From the NCBI GenBank assembly GCA_006739055.1, contig AP019702.1, forward strand, positions 2,567,388 to 2,631,387: a DNA stretch of 64,000 nt. Reading direction: 5' to 3'. This document shows positions 4,386 to 45,356 of this stretch, in pieces. The stretch comes from Allostella vacuolata. GTDB lineage: Bacteria > Pseudomonadota > Alphaproteobacteria > ATCC43930 > Allostellaceae. Under the pieces are notes generated by a model that was not told the origin of the DNA, ran no database searches, and worked only from the letters and a program-made list of their open reading frames with translations. The first letter of the stretch is position 1. Each line of letters opens with the position of its first letter. Both the position numbers and the translations under genes were made by a program.

Positions 4386-4396
4386 TCTATCCTCAG

Positions 4397-4455
4397 ATAT
4401 GGAATGAGATATTATTCGCAATATATTGATTTATATAGATAAATTATAAATGAAA
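4397..4455. other. AT-rich patch beside repeat element
   Basis: About 59 bases are dominated by A and T (for example TATTATTCGCAATATATTG), in sharp contrast to the GC-rich surroundings. It holds no gene. It lies between the metC hairpin and the structured repeat. It could be a promoter-like or nucleoid-protein-binding segment or the remnant of inserted DNA. Confidence 0.6.
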
Positions 4456-4472
4456 GCGGGACGCTGCCCATC

Positions 4473-4591
4473 GGCCAAAGCGTCCCTCGACTACGCTCGG
4501 GATGAGGGCCGTCTCGATCGGCGGAAGCACTCGTGGATAAAGGAAATTTCCTCACCCTGAGCGCAGTCGAAGGGCGCTTTAGCCGTCGGCC
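4473..4591 (-). repeat. structured interspersed repeat, copy 1 (about 119 bp)
   Basis: Two imperfect inverted arms (4473-4507 and 4550-4591) share the core AAAGCG-CCCTCGACT-GCTC-GGATGAGG and flank a 42-base loop. The same element, in the opposite orientation, occurs at 45206-45326. After reverse-complementing copy 1, the 22-base loop segments 4525-4546 and 45245-45266 match at 19 positions. The loop conservation shows a real repeat family rather than two chance hairpins. A partial third arm lies at 4654-4677. It resembles the REP/palindromic families common between alphaproteobacterial genes. Confidence 0.8.
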
Positions 4592-4653
4592 AGTACTCCA
4601 TTCGGTGGCCGCCGGCGATTTCATTCCCGGCGGATCGGGCCGACCGGTGGGAA

Positions 4654-4677
4654 CTCATCCCGAGCCTGATCGAGGCA
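4654..4677. repeat. isolated repeat half-arm
   Basis: CTCATCCCGAGCCTG followed by ATCGAGGCAC matches the right arm of the element at 45286-45310 (CTCATCCCGAGCCTGGTCGAGG) with few changes. No partner arm is visible nearby, so it is a solitary or decayed half-element. Confidence 0.6.
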
Positions 4678-4701
4678 CATTCCTGCCGATGTCCGGCGCG
4701 C

Positions 4702-5463
4702 CTACTGATCCGTCTCCCGCTCCGCCAGCATGGTGCGCGCCACGCGCTCGACCGGCGGGCCCTCGGCGTCGGCGATCTCGCGCAGCAGCTTCTGCAGGAT
4801 GGCGTTGGGGAATGCCTGGGCCTCGGTGGCGACGATCAGGAAGCTGTTCGGCCCGCCCACCACATGGTCGCGGTAATACTCATCGAGCGGCGGCTCCGGC
4901 GGCCAGGTCCAGGCCGGCTTGGGGCGCATGATGGCCAGCCCGTTGACGGTCACCCCGGCCGCGACCGCCGCGTCGCGGGCGGCGGCCGGCAGGCGGCCAT
5001 GGTTGTTGACCCCGTCGCCCGACACGTCGATCACCTTGCGCTGCCCCTCGAAGGCGTTGCCTTCGATCAGGATCACCCCGGCATCGATGGCGGCGCCGAT
5101 CGCGGTCCAGCTCTGCGACACCCGCGGCTGCGCCCACAGGCGCGCGGCGAAGCCGTCGGCCGCCTCCTTGCCGTCGATCTGCGACCAGCCGACCACCACC
5201 CGTTGGTACTCGGCTGCCGACCACTCGACATAGGTGACGGCGATGCTCCCGGTCCGGCCGGAGCGGATGGCATCGACGATGCGCGGGTCGCGGAAGGCGC
5301 GGGCATAGCCCTCGCGCTGCAGGCGCCCGTCGGCCTCGTCGATCGAGTGCGAGACGTCGACCGCCAGCACCAGCTCCAGGTCGACCGGCACGCCGTCGGC
5401 CCGCGCCGCCCCCGCGGCCAGCAGGGCTGCCAGGACCCCCAGCGCATGGGCCGTCCGGCGCAT
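4702..5463 (-). CDS. secreted DUF1194 / von Willebrand factor A-like protein (paralogue 2)
   Basis: The 253-residue protein has an N-terminal signal peptide (hydrophobic residues about 7-18, cleavage likely after ARA). A VWA-like domain follows, with a metal-ion-dependent adhesion site DVSHS near residue 36 and the family motif VIDVSGDGVNNHGR near 143. DUF1194 proteins are exported and have no established biochemical role; the MIDAS motif suggests divalent-cation-dependent protein binding. It starts 5 bases after its paralogue upstream and the two clearly arose by duplication. Confidence 0.85.
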   Translation of the reverse strand: MRRTAHALGVLAALLAAGAARADGVPVDLELVLAVDVSHSIDEADGRLQREGYARAFRDPRIVDAIRSGRTGSIAVTYVEWSAAEYQRVVVGWSQIDGKEAADGFAARLWAQPRVSQSWTAIGAAIDAGVILIEGNAFEGQRKVIDVSGDGVNNHGRLPAAARDAAVAAGVTVNGLAIMRPKPAWTWPPEPPLDEYYRDHVVGGPNSFLIVATEAQAFPNAILQKLLREIADAEGPPVERVARTMLAERETDQ

Positions 5464-5468
5464 GCGCC

Positions 5469-6200
5469 TCAGCCACCGCCTGGAAGCGCTGGAATATCAG
5501 TCTGGTCGGCGATTTCCTTGAGAAGCTTGTTGAGAACCGCCTCGCCGAACGCCTCGAAATCCTCGGCCACCGCCAGGAAGGCGCCGGGGCCGCCGATCAC
5601 GTTCTCGCGGTACCAGGCATCGAGCTCGCGGTCGGGCGGCCGGCCGAAATTGGTCCGGTCGTTCATGATGGCGAGCCCGTTGATGGTGATGCCCTTCGCC
5701 ACCGCCTCGTCGCGGGCGGCGGCGGCCGGGCGTCCGGAATTGTTGCGGCCGTCGCCGGAGATGTCGATCACCTGCCGCGTGCCCTCGAACGCCTGGCCGA
5801 ACAGCGGGACCGAGAAGTCGATCGCGCCGGAGACCGAGGTCCAGCCCCAGGACTGGCGCGGCGATGCCGCCAGCCGGTCGGCGAAGGCGCGCGCGCTGGC
5901 CTCGTCCTCGATCAGCGTCCAGCCGATGATGTGGCGCTGGAAATCGACCGCGGCCCATTCGACGTAGGTGACGCCGATGCGGCCCAGCGGGCCGTTGGCG
6001 ATGGCGCGGATGATGCGCGGGTTGCGGAACGCCTCCACATAGCCCTGGCGCTGCAGCTGCGCCTCGACCTCGTCGACCGAGCGCGACACGTCGACCGCCA
6101 GCACCAGCTCGACATCGACCGGCTCGATCGCCAGCGCCGCGGGCGGCGTCGCGCCGACGACCAGGAACGCAGCCAGAATCGACCGAGTCAGCACGCCCAT
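5469..6200 (-). CDS. secreted DUF1194 / von Willebrand factor A-like protein (paralogue 1)
   Basis: The 243-residue protein has a signal peptide (ILAAFLVVGATPPAALA), the MIDAS DVSRS near residue 36, and VIDISGDGRNNSGR near 142. It parallels the downstream paralogue along its whole length, including the WAAVDFQ/WSAAEYQ and NGLAIM segments. The gene lies 9 bases downstream of the EamA transporter gene on the same strand, so the three are probably one transcript. The function is unknown; a periplasmic or surface binding role is inferred from the VWA fold. Confidence 0.85.
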   Translation of the reverse strand: MGVLTRSILAAFLVVGATPPAALAIEPVDVELVLAVDVSRSVDEVEAQLQRQGYVEAFRNPRIIRAIANGPLGRIGVTYVEWAAVDFQRHIIGWTLIEDEASARAFADRLAASPRQSWGWTSVSGAIDFSVPLFGQAFEGTRQVIDISGDGRNNSGRPAAAARDEAVAKGITINGLAIMNDRTNFGRPPDRELDAWYRENVIGGPGAFLAVAEDFEAFGEAVLNKLLKEIADQTDIPALPGGG

Positions 6201-18274: not shown

Positions 18275-18732
18275 AGCTCAGCACGAAGGGCCGATACGCG
18301 GTGATGGCGATGGTCGACTTGGCCACCCATTGCACCGGGCGGCCGGTGGCGCTGTCGGACATTGCCGACCGGCAGGAAATCTCGCTGTCCTATCTGGAGC
18401 AGCTGTTCGCCAAGCTGCGGCGCGGCGGGCTGGTGCGCAGCGTGCGCGGGCCGGGCGGCGGCTACCTGCTGGCCCGCGCGATGGCGGAAACCCGCGTGTC
18501 CGACATCATCCTGGCGGTCGACGAGCCGATCCGGGCGACCCGCTGTACCCCCGGGGTCTCGCGCGGCTGCCACGCCGACAAGAGCCGGTGCCTGACCCAC
18601 GATCTGTGGGCTGAGCTCGGCAACCAGATCCATCTGTTCCTGAGCGCGGTCACCCTGGCCGACATCTGCGAGCGCCGCGTGCTCGGCACCAGCGGCATCA
18701 CCCACCACCGCGCGCAGGTCGCGGCGGAGTAG
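18271..18732 (+). CDS. iscR: Rrf2-family iron-sulfur regulator IscR
   Basis: The 153-residue protein begins with a GTG ([18 protein letters not shown]) overlapping the cysE stop. The winged helix includes [16 protein letters not shown] and the wing [12 protein letters not shown]. Three cysteines in [20 protein letters not shown], spaced x7 and x6, are the expected [2Fe-2S] ligands; E. coli IscR has x5 and x5, so the loop is longer here. It probably represses this operon from the operator at 17452-17476. Confidence 0.93.
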
Positions 18733-18747
18733 CCGGGAGGATCCGGA

Positions 18748-19854
18748 ATGATGGCGTATCTCGACCACAACGCGACCTCGCCGCTGCGCCCGGCGGCGCG
18801 CGATGCGATGATCGCGGCCCTGGCCGAGTGCGGCAACCCGTCCTCGCCGCATGCCGCCGGCCGCGCCGCCCGGGCCCGGGTGGAGGCTGCGCGCCGCACC
18901 CTGGCGCTCGCCTTCGACTGCGCGCTCGATTCGGTCATCTTCACCAGCGGCGGCACCGAGGCGAACAACCTGGCCGTCCGCGGCACGGGTGCCGCCACCG
19001 TCCTGGTCTCCGCGGTCGAGCATGATTCGGTGCGCGAGGCCGAGCGGCGGGCGGAAGTCATCCCCGTCGACGGGAACGGCATCGTCGACCTGGAATGGCT
19101 GGAAGCGCGGCTGGCCCGCGGCGGGGTGGGCCTGGTGTCGGTGATGCTGGCCAACAACGAGACCGGCGTCATCCAGCCGATCGCCGACGTGGTCCGGCTG
19201 GCCCACGCCGAGGGCGCCCTGGTCCATACCGACGCCACCCAGGCGGCCGGGCGCATCCCGCTCTCCTTCGAGTCGCTCGACGTCGAGCTGATGACGGTCT
19301 CGGCCCACAAGCTGGGCGGCCCGCCGGGCGTGGGCGCGCTGCTGGTCCAGGAGGGCTTTCCCTTGCGGCCGCTGCTGCGCGGCGGCCGGCAGGAGGACGG
19401 GCGGCGCGCCGGGACGGAGAACGTGCCGGCGATCGCGGGCTTCGCCGCGGCGGTCGAGGCGGCCCTGGCGACGGCCGACGGCACCCGGGCCCTGCGCGAC
19501 GGGCTGGAGGCGCGCCTGCTGGCGTCGGCTCCCGGCGCGCGCATCCTGGGCGCCCTGGTCGACCGGCTGCCCAACACCACCTGCATCGCCATGCCGGGGG
19601 TTGCGGCCGAGACGCAGGTCATGGCGCTCGACCTGGCGGGCATCGCGGTCAGCGCCGGTGCCGCCTGCTCGTCGGGCAAGGTTCGGACGTCGCCGGTCCT
19701 GGCGGCGATGGGAGTGGACGCGGAGCTGGCCCGGTCGGCGATCCGCATCAGTCTGGGTTGGAACAGCACGGCCGACGACGTCGGGCGGTGCGCCGAAGCC
19801 TGGTGGGCGCTGTGGGCGCGCACCCGCGGGCGCAAGACCGTCCAGGCGGCATAG
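18748..19854 (+). CDS. cysteine desulfurase family protein (second NifS/IscS paralogue)
   Basis: The 368-residue PLP enzyme has [14 protein letters not shown], the Schiff-base lysine K188 in [16 protein letters not shown] and the reactive loop cysteine C307 in [15 protein letters not shown]. All parts needed to remove sulfur from cysteine are present. It lies 15 bases after iscR and 29 before a second, larger desulfurase. In alphaproteobacterial suf/isc operons such a paralogue often follows iscR. Whether it feeds IscU or another acceptor is unknown. Confidence 0.9.
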
Positions 19855-19883
19855 GGCCAGTGGAAATCTCGAGGAGCACGAAC

Positions 19884-21128
19884 ATGCCCGAAGGCAGCGC
19901 GATCGAACGGAACGACACCGGCTATCCCATCTACCTGGACTACCAGGCGACGACGCCGACCGACCCGCGCGTGGTCGAGGCGATGCTGCCCTACTTCACG
20001 GAGCGTTTCGGCAACCCCCATTCGCGCAACCACCGCTATGGCTGGGAGGCCGAGGACGCGGTCGAGACGGCCCGCGCCCAGGTGGCATCGATCATCGGCG
20101 CCGACCCGAAGGAGGTGATCTTCACCTCCGGGGCGACGGAATCGAACAACCTGGCGCTCAAGGGCGTCGCCCATTTCCATCGCGACAAGAAGCGCCACAT
20201 CGTCACCGTGGTGACCGAGCACAAGTGCGTGCTGGACAGCTGCCGCTACCTCGAGGAGGAGGGCTTCCGGGTCACCTACCTGCCGGTGCAGCAGAACGGC
20301 CTGCTCGACCTGGACCAGCTGCGCGCCGCGATCGAGGACGACACCGTCATCGTGTCGGTGATGGCGGTCAACAACGAGATCGGCGTGATCCAGCCGCTGG
20401 CGGAGATCGGCAAGATCTGCCGCGAGCGCGGGACCTATTTCCACACCGACGCGGCCCAGGCGGTGGGCAAGATCCCGCTCGACGTCAACGCGATGAACAT
20501 CGACCTGCTCAGCATCTCGGGCCACAAGATCTACGGGCCCAAGGGCATCGGCGCGCTCTATGTCCGGCGCAAGCCGCGGGTGCGCCTGCAGCCGCTGATC
20601 ACCGGCGGCGGCCAGGAGCGCGGCCTGCGCTCGGGCACCCTGCCGACCCCGCTCTGCGTCGGGCTGGGCGAGGCCTGCGCGATCGCGGAGCGCGAGATGG
20701 CCGGGGAGGCGGCGCGGCTGGAAGCGCTGCGCGCCCGCTTCTACGAGCAGATCACCGCCCGCCTGCCGGAGGTCTATCTCAACGGCGACACCACCCATCG
20801 CATCCCGGGCAACCTCAACCTCAGCTTCGCCTATGTCGAGGGCGAGGGGCTGATGATGGGGATCAAGGGCCTGTCGGTGTCGTCCGGCTCGGCCTGCACC
20901 TCCGCCTCGCTGGAGCCGTCCTACGTGCTGCGCGCGCTGGGCGTGGAGGAGGAGATGGCCCACACCTCGCTGCGCATCGGCCTCGGCCGCTACACGACCG
21001 AGGCGGAGGTGGATGCCGCGGTCGAGCAGATCGCCGCCAACGTCTCCAAGCTGCGGGCCATGAGCCCGCTGTGGGAGATGGTCCAGGAGGGCGTCGACCT
21101 GCGCTCGATCCAGTGGGCGGCCCACTGA
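19884..21128 (+). CDS. iscS: cysteine desulfurase IscS
   Basis: The 414-residue enzyme opens with [17 protein letters not shown] and has K215 in [19 protein letters not shown] and the mobile-loop cysteine C338 in [19 protein letters not shown]. This loop and the C-terminal LREMSPLWEM-like helix are diagnostic of group I (IscS/NFS1) desulfurases. It supplies persulfide to IscU and, in known systems, to MnmA for tRNA thiolation; mnmA is in the same gene run. The ATG has GAGGAG upstream. Confidence 0.95.
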
Positions 21129-45077: not shown

Positions 45078-45205
45078 AGGCGCCGCTCAGATGGGATGCC
45101 CAACCGCCAGATCGGCCCTCGGCGGCGCTCGGATGAGTTGCCACCGCAGCAGGCGACCCGCCGGGGAAGGTGGAGGCTGCCGGGGAGAAGGGCGCGCTGG
45201 ACATT

Positions 45206-45326
45206 GGCCAAAGCGTCCCTCGACCGGGCTCGGGATGAGGATTCTTTCCTGTTTCCACGAGCGCTTGTGCAAAGCGAGAAGTGCCCTCATCCCGAGCCTG
45301 GTCGAGGGACGCTACGACCGTCGGGC
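45206..45326 (+). repeat. structured interspersed repeat, copy 2 (about 121 bp)
   Basis: Arms 45206-45240 and 45285-45326 are inverted and flank a 44-base loop. The arms carry AAAGCGTCCCTCGACC and CTCGGGATGAGG. The loop segment 45245-45266 matches the reverse complement of 4525-4546 at 19 of 22 positions, so the two elements are the same family in opposite orientation. It fills most of the rng-yacG gap; apparent short reading frames across it, ending in a P-x-VEGR peptide, are products of the repeat. Confidence 0.8.
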
Positions 45327-45356
45327 AGCGCCCGGTTTCCAGTAGGAGCATCCGCC

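Follow-up and report, generated by a model that had tools for sequence, protein, structure and literature searches.

The window and its two repeat copies

The window, the whole 64,000-nt stretch of DNA analysed here, belongs to the star-shaped bacterium Allostella (formerly Stella) vacuolata, whose genome (G000) is a single contig of 5,834,761 bp. It holds two copies of an interspersed repeat, the first adjoining a strongly AT-rich tract of ~55 bases (4395-4450) in a genome of ~71% GC, and the second lying in the gap between an RNase E/G family gene and yacG. Elsewhere in the window, two adjacent DUF1194 genes (4705-5463 and 5472-6200, minus strand) share DNA blocks of 72-76% identity and constitute a tandem duplication, and two stretches ~1.2 kb apart at ~18430-20615, with blocks that are 79-85% identical, are probably a paralogous gene pair. 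At the gathering score, Rfam matched only four tRNAs in the window and nothing in the repeat.

Each copy consists at its core of two inverted arms that face each other across a spacer of 42 or 44 nt, and the two copies lie in opposite orientations; on all of these points our coordinates and alignment agree with the first-pass annotation. Also borne out is its proposal that the loop is conserved along with the arms: segment 4525-4546, when reverse-complemented, matches 45245-45266 at 19/22 positions, against a best of 16/22 in 2000 spacer shuffles. This conservation is explained in part by the spacer itself, since that of copy 2 is an imperfect palindrome, agreeing with its reverse complement at 18/22 positions. 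The homology extends well past the 120 bases originally described, to ~255 bp of local alignment in opposite orientation (score 199 reverse-complemented, 111 forward), and no inverted pairs anywhere in the window are longer than the two that join the copy 1 and copy 2 regions. What had been taken for a lone arm at 4654-4677 is indeed an arm but not a solitary one, being the third arm of copy 1. The features are as follows.

4451-4708, minus strand: copy 1, full homology with copy 2 by local alignment; interval nearly missing in three relatives
4451-4479, no strand: A-end module of copy 1, TGAAAGCGGGACGCTGCCCATCGGCCAAA, from an alignment of 35 copies
4480-4507, minus strand: copy 1 arm of the standard type, 0 mismatches to consensus
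4508-4549, no strand: copy 1 spacer, 42 nt
4550-4577, plus strand: copy 1 arm with both compensated pairs, CCTCACCCTGAGCGCAGTCGAAGGGCGC (T-A to C-G at 6/25, C-G to T-A at 9/22)
4578-4652, no strand: B module of copy 1, agreeing at 87% with the consensus for this module (genome positions 2571975-2572045)
4653-4680, plus strand: third arm of copy 1, 5 mismatches; several other copies have an arm at the equivalent position
45087-45339, plus strand: copy 2, full homology with copy 1 by alignment; gap between flanking genes longer than in S. humosa (279 nt vs 12 nt)
~45116-45137, minus strand: decayed third arm of copy 2, from the alignment by eye
45138-45212, no strand: C-type module of copy 2, from alignments
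45213-45240, minus strand: copy 2 arm of the standard type
45241-45284, no strand: copy 2 spacer, 44 nt, imperfectly palindromic
45285-45312, plus strand: copy 2 arm of the standard type
45313-45342, no strand: A-end module of copy 2, TACGACCGTCGGGCAGCGCCCGGTTTCCAG, from an alignment of 35 copies

A multi-copy family built on hairpin arms

The first-pass annotation had considered a defined element, a view that few further copies would have contradicted; the S. vacuolata genome in fact carries at least 40 doublets, aligning to copy 2 at 80-100%, and 121 exact matches to the 24-base arm, the reversed-pattern control giving 0. A degenerate, near-consensus arm has 150 matches. These counts are based on whole-genome pattern searches together with one 400-kb stretch, in which a profile HMM found 10 doublets, and the extrapolated doublet total is accordingly ~75-80 from the arm counts or ~145 from that stretch. 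A full copy runs from an A end (GATAGAAACYGGGCATTGCCC...GGTCGTA) through arm, spacer and arm to a B or C module (TTTGACCGG...GGTTTCATTCCCGGCGGGTCGGGCCAACCGGTGGGAACT), often with a third arm. The head-to-head dimers (n=35) have spacers that are alike in both length and sequence. As the orientation of the spacer relative to the ends varies among the S. vacuolata copies, the spacer may flip via recombination between the arms. At two of the extracted loci, the spacer of one (L104 2197-2371) resembles the reverse complement of that of the other (L099 2569-2743) with the ends keeping their order, as if flipped.

The exact arm has 0 matches in S. humosa (ATCC 43930, 5,832,650 bp), 58 in Stella sp. 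ATCC 35155 (AP019701.1, 5,339,096 bp) and 38 in one genome from another family of the same order; among the matches listed, it also occurs in Polymorphobacter, Pacificimonas and Rhodospirillales MAGs. Of 385 genomes sampled from the class, 8 carry the degenerate arm. Spacers and end modules differ from species to species; in other genera the arms come with other spacers and in other arrangements. In Polymorphobacter (L116 1049-1116, L124, L154), for instance, arms starting GCTC stand tail-to-tail, 41 bases start to start, which is not the principal layout observed in Stella. In the literature searched we found no description of this specific family; the papers returned by a sequence-string search dealt, to judge by title and abstract, with unrelated work.

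Each arm is a REP-like hairpin of 27-28 nt (CTCAYCCYGAGCNNNGTCGARGGRCGC), with a 4-bp stem YCCY/RGGR at positions 6-9/22-25, beyond which come a tandem G-A mismatch and a single G-C pair; positions 5/26 are A-C. It begins with the tag CCTC in most S. vacuolata arms, of which only CTC is constant, because the first base is G, A or T in many others. For the covariation proposed in the first-pass annotation we employed a profile HMM and direct pair counts in place of a covariance model. Among 236 arms, positions 6/25 are T-A in 213, C-G in 14 and T-G in 3, and positions 9/22 are C-G in 220 and T-A in 10. Fisher tests of these true within-arm pairs give P values of 8e-23 (6/25) and 6e-15 (9/22), with the reservation that copies within one genome are not independent; crossed pairs of positions associate more weakly (P 4e-8 and 2e-5), and do so because the arm variants are partly linked. 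The argument for pairing therefore rests on compensation: arms that depart from the standard on both sides are C-G in 14/18 cases at 6/25 and T-A in 10/11 at 9/22, all four combinations of the two pair types occur, and unrelated or distant genomes show the same compensated variants, with one exception among those listed. The second arm of window copy 1 (4550-4577) carries both compensated pairs.

Between the two arms the situation is quite different. The RNAalifold covariation term is 0.01, and in doublets with one departing arm the partner is of the standard type in 6/6; no long-range covariation from arm to arm was found. The loop triplets of doublet partners agree in 8/29 cases against 3.0 expected (P 0.004). 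A single isolated arm folds no better than shuffled sequence, and the doublet folds very stably as RNA (z ~ -9 and ~ -6 for the two window copies). Compensatory changes are thus present, within each arm and not between the arms, which is elsewhere than the first-pass annotation expected. Its statement that the repeat is "not just REP-like palindromes" is too strong, since the covariation makes each arm behave like a REP. In our view it is the arm that is conserved as a unit, and the long hairpin follows from two copies standing face to face.

Empty sites, end modules and transposases

The mobility suggested in the first-pass annotation is supported, both window sites being empty in sister species and further empty sites occurring at other copies. 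The interval with copy 1 is almost absent from three relatives, the RNase E/G family gene-yacG gap that contains copy 2 shrinks from 279 nt in the window to 12 nt in S. humosa, and for two further S. vacuolata copies the clean empty site is found in S. humosa. A reproducible target duplication was not seen at the S. vacuolata copies inspected by eye, and their ends are variable. With a rough codon-usage gene caller, 15 of the classified copies lie between convergent genes, 11 between tandem ones, 1 between divergent ones and 1 inside a called gene (7 are unclassified), compared with a convergent:tandem:divergent ratio of 60:182:59 for all gaps; this caller missed yacG, and its individual gene calls are unreliable. 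The copies are hence enriched between convergent genes and depleted between divergent ones, lying mostly 3' of genes. In S. vacuolata the element is a non-coding mobile repeat whose insertion is shown by its empty sites.

In Stella sp. ATCC 35155, arms identical to these lie within a 174-bp element with termini TACCAAATCCG and a different, shorter doublet spacer, mostly 30 nt. Of 14 exact termini found in that genome, 13 lie at arm doublets by their coordinates, and many of the 28 extracted doublets have no recognisable termini. Nine aligned copies share a single polarity, with identity up to 98.3%. The target is CTNAG, and 7/10 copies having both termini with at most 3 mismatches are flanked by identical TNA, of which the agreement at N carries the information, T and A being preferred. 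Within the G000 and S. humosa stretches compared, the copies show no clean empty sites; a search with the joined flanks of the first four sites, however, produced one good empty site, that of a copy at a TGA stop codon, which is empty in both G000 and a further genome, G003. Short, non-coding, bounded by terminal inverted repeats and accompanied by a target duplication and an empty site, the ATCC 35155 element is a MITE.

A candidate for its mover is found in S. humosa, in an IS with six pairs of termini (five at 1172 bp, one interrupted) and matching TNA flanks at 6/6 pairs, five of which were read out. Two of its frames code for HTH_33 and DDE_3 domains, which we take to be of the IS630 type. 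The end TACCAAGTCCG-N8-TGACTCA is common to this IS and to the type-2 end of the ATCC 35155 MITE, so that the two match in their termini, in one subterminal motif at equal distance and in the TNA duplication; apart from the ends, BLAST finds only short chance matches between them. IS630 elements generally duplicate TA, and in this respect the TNA of the Stella elements is different. The shared ends suggest that an IS630 transposase moved the MITE, although the MITE and this transposase never occur together in the genomes examined: the S. humosa transposase was not found in ATCC 35155 or G003, and in G000 only as a fragment. This link holds for the sister strain only, the copies in the window genome having other end modules; it may be, more speculatively, that the S. 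vacuolata family spread in the same way as the MITE. As for the REP-associated tyrosine transposase that the first-pass annotation had thought worth seeking, the Y1_Tnp domain (PF01797) was not detected in G000 even at E 10, and control genomes did match.

S. vacuolata has in addition a 1137-bp IS (DDE_Tnp_1_5/DDE_Tnp_1) in three copies (L228, L230 and L229, at 660144-661154, 1323233-1324243 and 3264442-3265452 of the G000 contig, C1), all of them within the spacer of the element. Its 9-bp duplications fall at one fixed spacer position, ~3 bp from an arm. Two pairs of arms separated by 1.22 kb, at 660033 and 1323095, raised the possibility of a parental IS with the arms as its termini; we reject this reading, since what lies between the arms is an IS that has ends of its own and is flanked, within the spacer, by 9-bp duplications. 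Insertion sequences that target REPs are already known (Tobes and Pareja 2006, PMC1525189). The 1137-bp IS resembles them in that its copies are all in the repeat (3/3), and differs in its DDE_Tnp_1_5/DDE_Tnp_1 transposase and in the placing of its duplications; it adds a new case of an IS that targets REPs.

Relationships and origin of the family

Among the nearest described systems are the CGTC REPs, which have an unpaired tag CGTC (or TGTC, CCTC), an 8-9 bp stem starting with A-T and a tail that is mostly CCA; found mostly in Alphaproteobacteria and 3' of genes, they occur predominantly as head-to-head dimers, in which the conserved spacer measures 20-100 bp (PMC3733652). No RAYT is linked to them and no dedicated transposase is known, the mover having been left open (Di Nocera et al. 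2013, PMC3733652). The Stella arms are similar in being short hairpins in head-to-head dimers with a conserved spacer, 3' of genes and with no dedicated transposase known, and the CCTC of the S. vacuolata arms is a known tag variant. They differ, however, in their 4-bp stem with a tandem G-A mismatch, in the A-C that replaces the first A-T pair, in a tail that is CGC rather than CCA in nearly all arms, in a tag whose first base varies, and in being embedded in a longer unit that has end modules and frequently a third arm. REPINs, inverted REP doublets around a spacer that form a long hairpin and are extragenic and of high copy number (Bertels and Rainey 2011, PMC3116915), share with our family its two inverted REP-like arms around a spacer, its capacity to fold as a long hairpin, its high copy number and its extragenic location, but a RAYT domain was not detected in G000 and the sister-strain unit has DDE-type termini and target duplications. 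Finally, the ATCC 35155 form is like an IS630-family MITE in its 174-bp length, its lack of coding capacity, its terminal inverted repeats, its TNA duplications and its S. humosa IS ends, and unlike one in that its core is a REP-like doublet; these ends are not seen in the S. vacuolata form. The family thus works like CGTC REPs and REPINs and can be filed as neither, since the doublet and spacer features agree and those of stem, tail and RAYT do not. REP doublets, CGTC-tagged REPs and REPINs being already described, the Stella family is a variant of this kind, and there is evidence, from the sister strain, that a DDE-transposase MITE carries it.

The explanation we favour, and consider probable, is that of a mobile repeat, non-coding and non-autonomous, with a REP-like arm doublet as its basis; it would be of the IS630-MITE type in the sister strain, with a similar spread for the window family. 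Each arm would fold alone as a small hairpin, the two facing each other across the 42-44 nt spacer, and a single strand of the doublet could also form one long hairpin. Spread has been by insertion into intergenic DNA just 3' of genes. For the ATCC 35155 MITE, the likeliest mover is an IS630-family DDE transposase acting in trans and making 3-bp TNA duplications at CTNAG, in some cases where the gene upstream has its stop codon. The S. vacuolata family, with the same arms and other end modules, would have spread similarly, in a genome where no RAYT was detected and the IS630 transposase survives only as a decayed fragment, and any use of a DDE transposase by the window family is something we infer. 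Whether alphaproteobacterial CGTC/CCTC-like REP doublets in general are cargo of IS630-mobilised MITEs rather than of HUH/RAYT systems, with end modules repeatedly swapped around the arm doublet, is a proposal that we make tentatively, as a possibility rather than an expectation.

A rival origin would make the doublet a genuine REPIN or a REP dimer of the CGTC type, which a tyrosine (HUH) transposase, now lost, moved in trans; an IS630-derived MITE would then have captured it secondarily in the sister strain. The doublet layout, the conserved spacer and the 3' location do match REPINs and head-to-head REP dimers (PMC3116915, PMC3733652), the arms are conserved as individual hairpins, and the S. 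vacuolata copies are without reproducible target duplications; furthermore, the arms must be older than the MITE, as they are present in other genera with other spacers and arrangements. Yet no Y1_Tnp domain was detected in G000 even at E 10, and CGTC REPs have not been tied to any RAYT (PMC3733652); we regard this origin as rather unlikely.

It seems distinctly improbable that the repeat is instead a functional RNA or DNA structure (a 3' hairpin, a terminator or a protein-binding site) kept by selection and spread only incidentally. The folding stability of the doublet (z ~ -9 and ~ -6), the arm covariation and the preference for convergent over divergent genes would all suit such a role, but promoter avoidance alone would yield an identical gene context, Rfam has no match, both window sites are empty in sister species, the exact arm is wholly absent from S. 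humosa, and the spacers and end modules are not common to the species. As for a chance match between GC-rich palindromes, the composition of the genome is all that speaks for it, and against 121 exact 24-base arms (0 for the reversed pattern) and a loop match unreached in 2000 shuffles its probability is negligible; chance similarity of the two window intervals is in any case refuted by the doublet and arm counts.

On the IS630-MITE reading, the match between the sister-strain MITE and an intact IS630-family element provides a testable candidate class of transposase for alphaproteobacterial REP doublets. It suggests how repeats without a known mover may spread, a question that Di Nocera et al. 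(2013) left open for the CGTC REPs (PMC3733652). Moreover, that the hairpin arms are conserved individually while the spacers and outer modules change bears on what constitutes the unit of spread in REP-like families.
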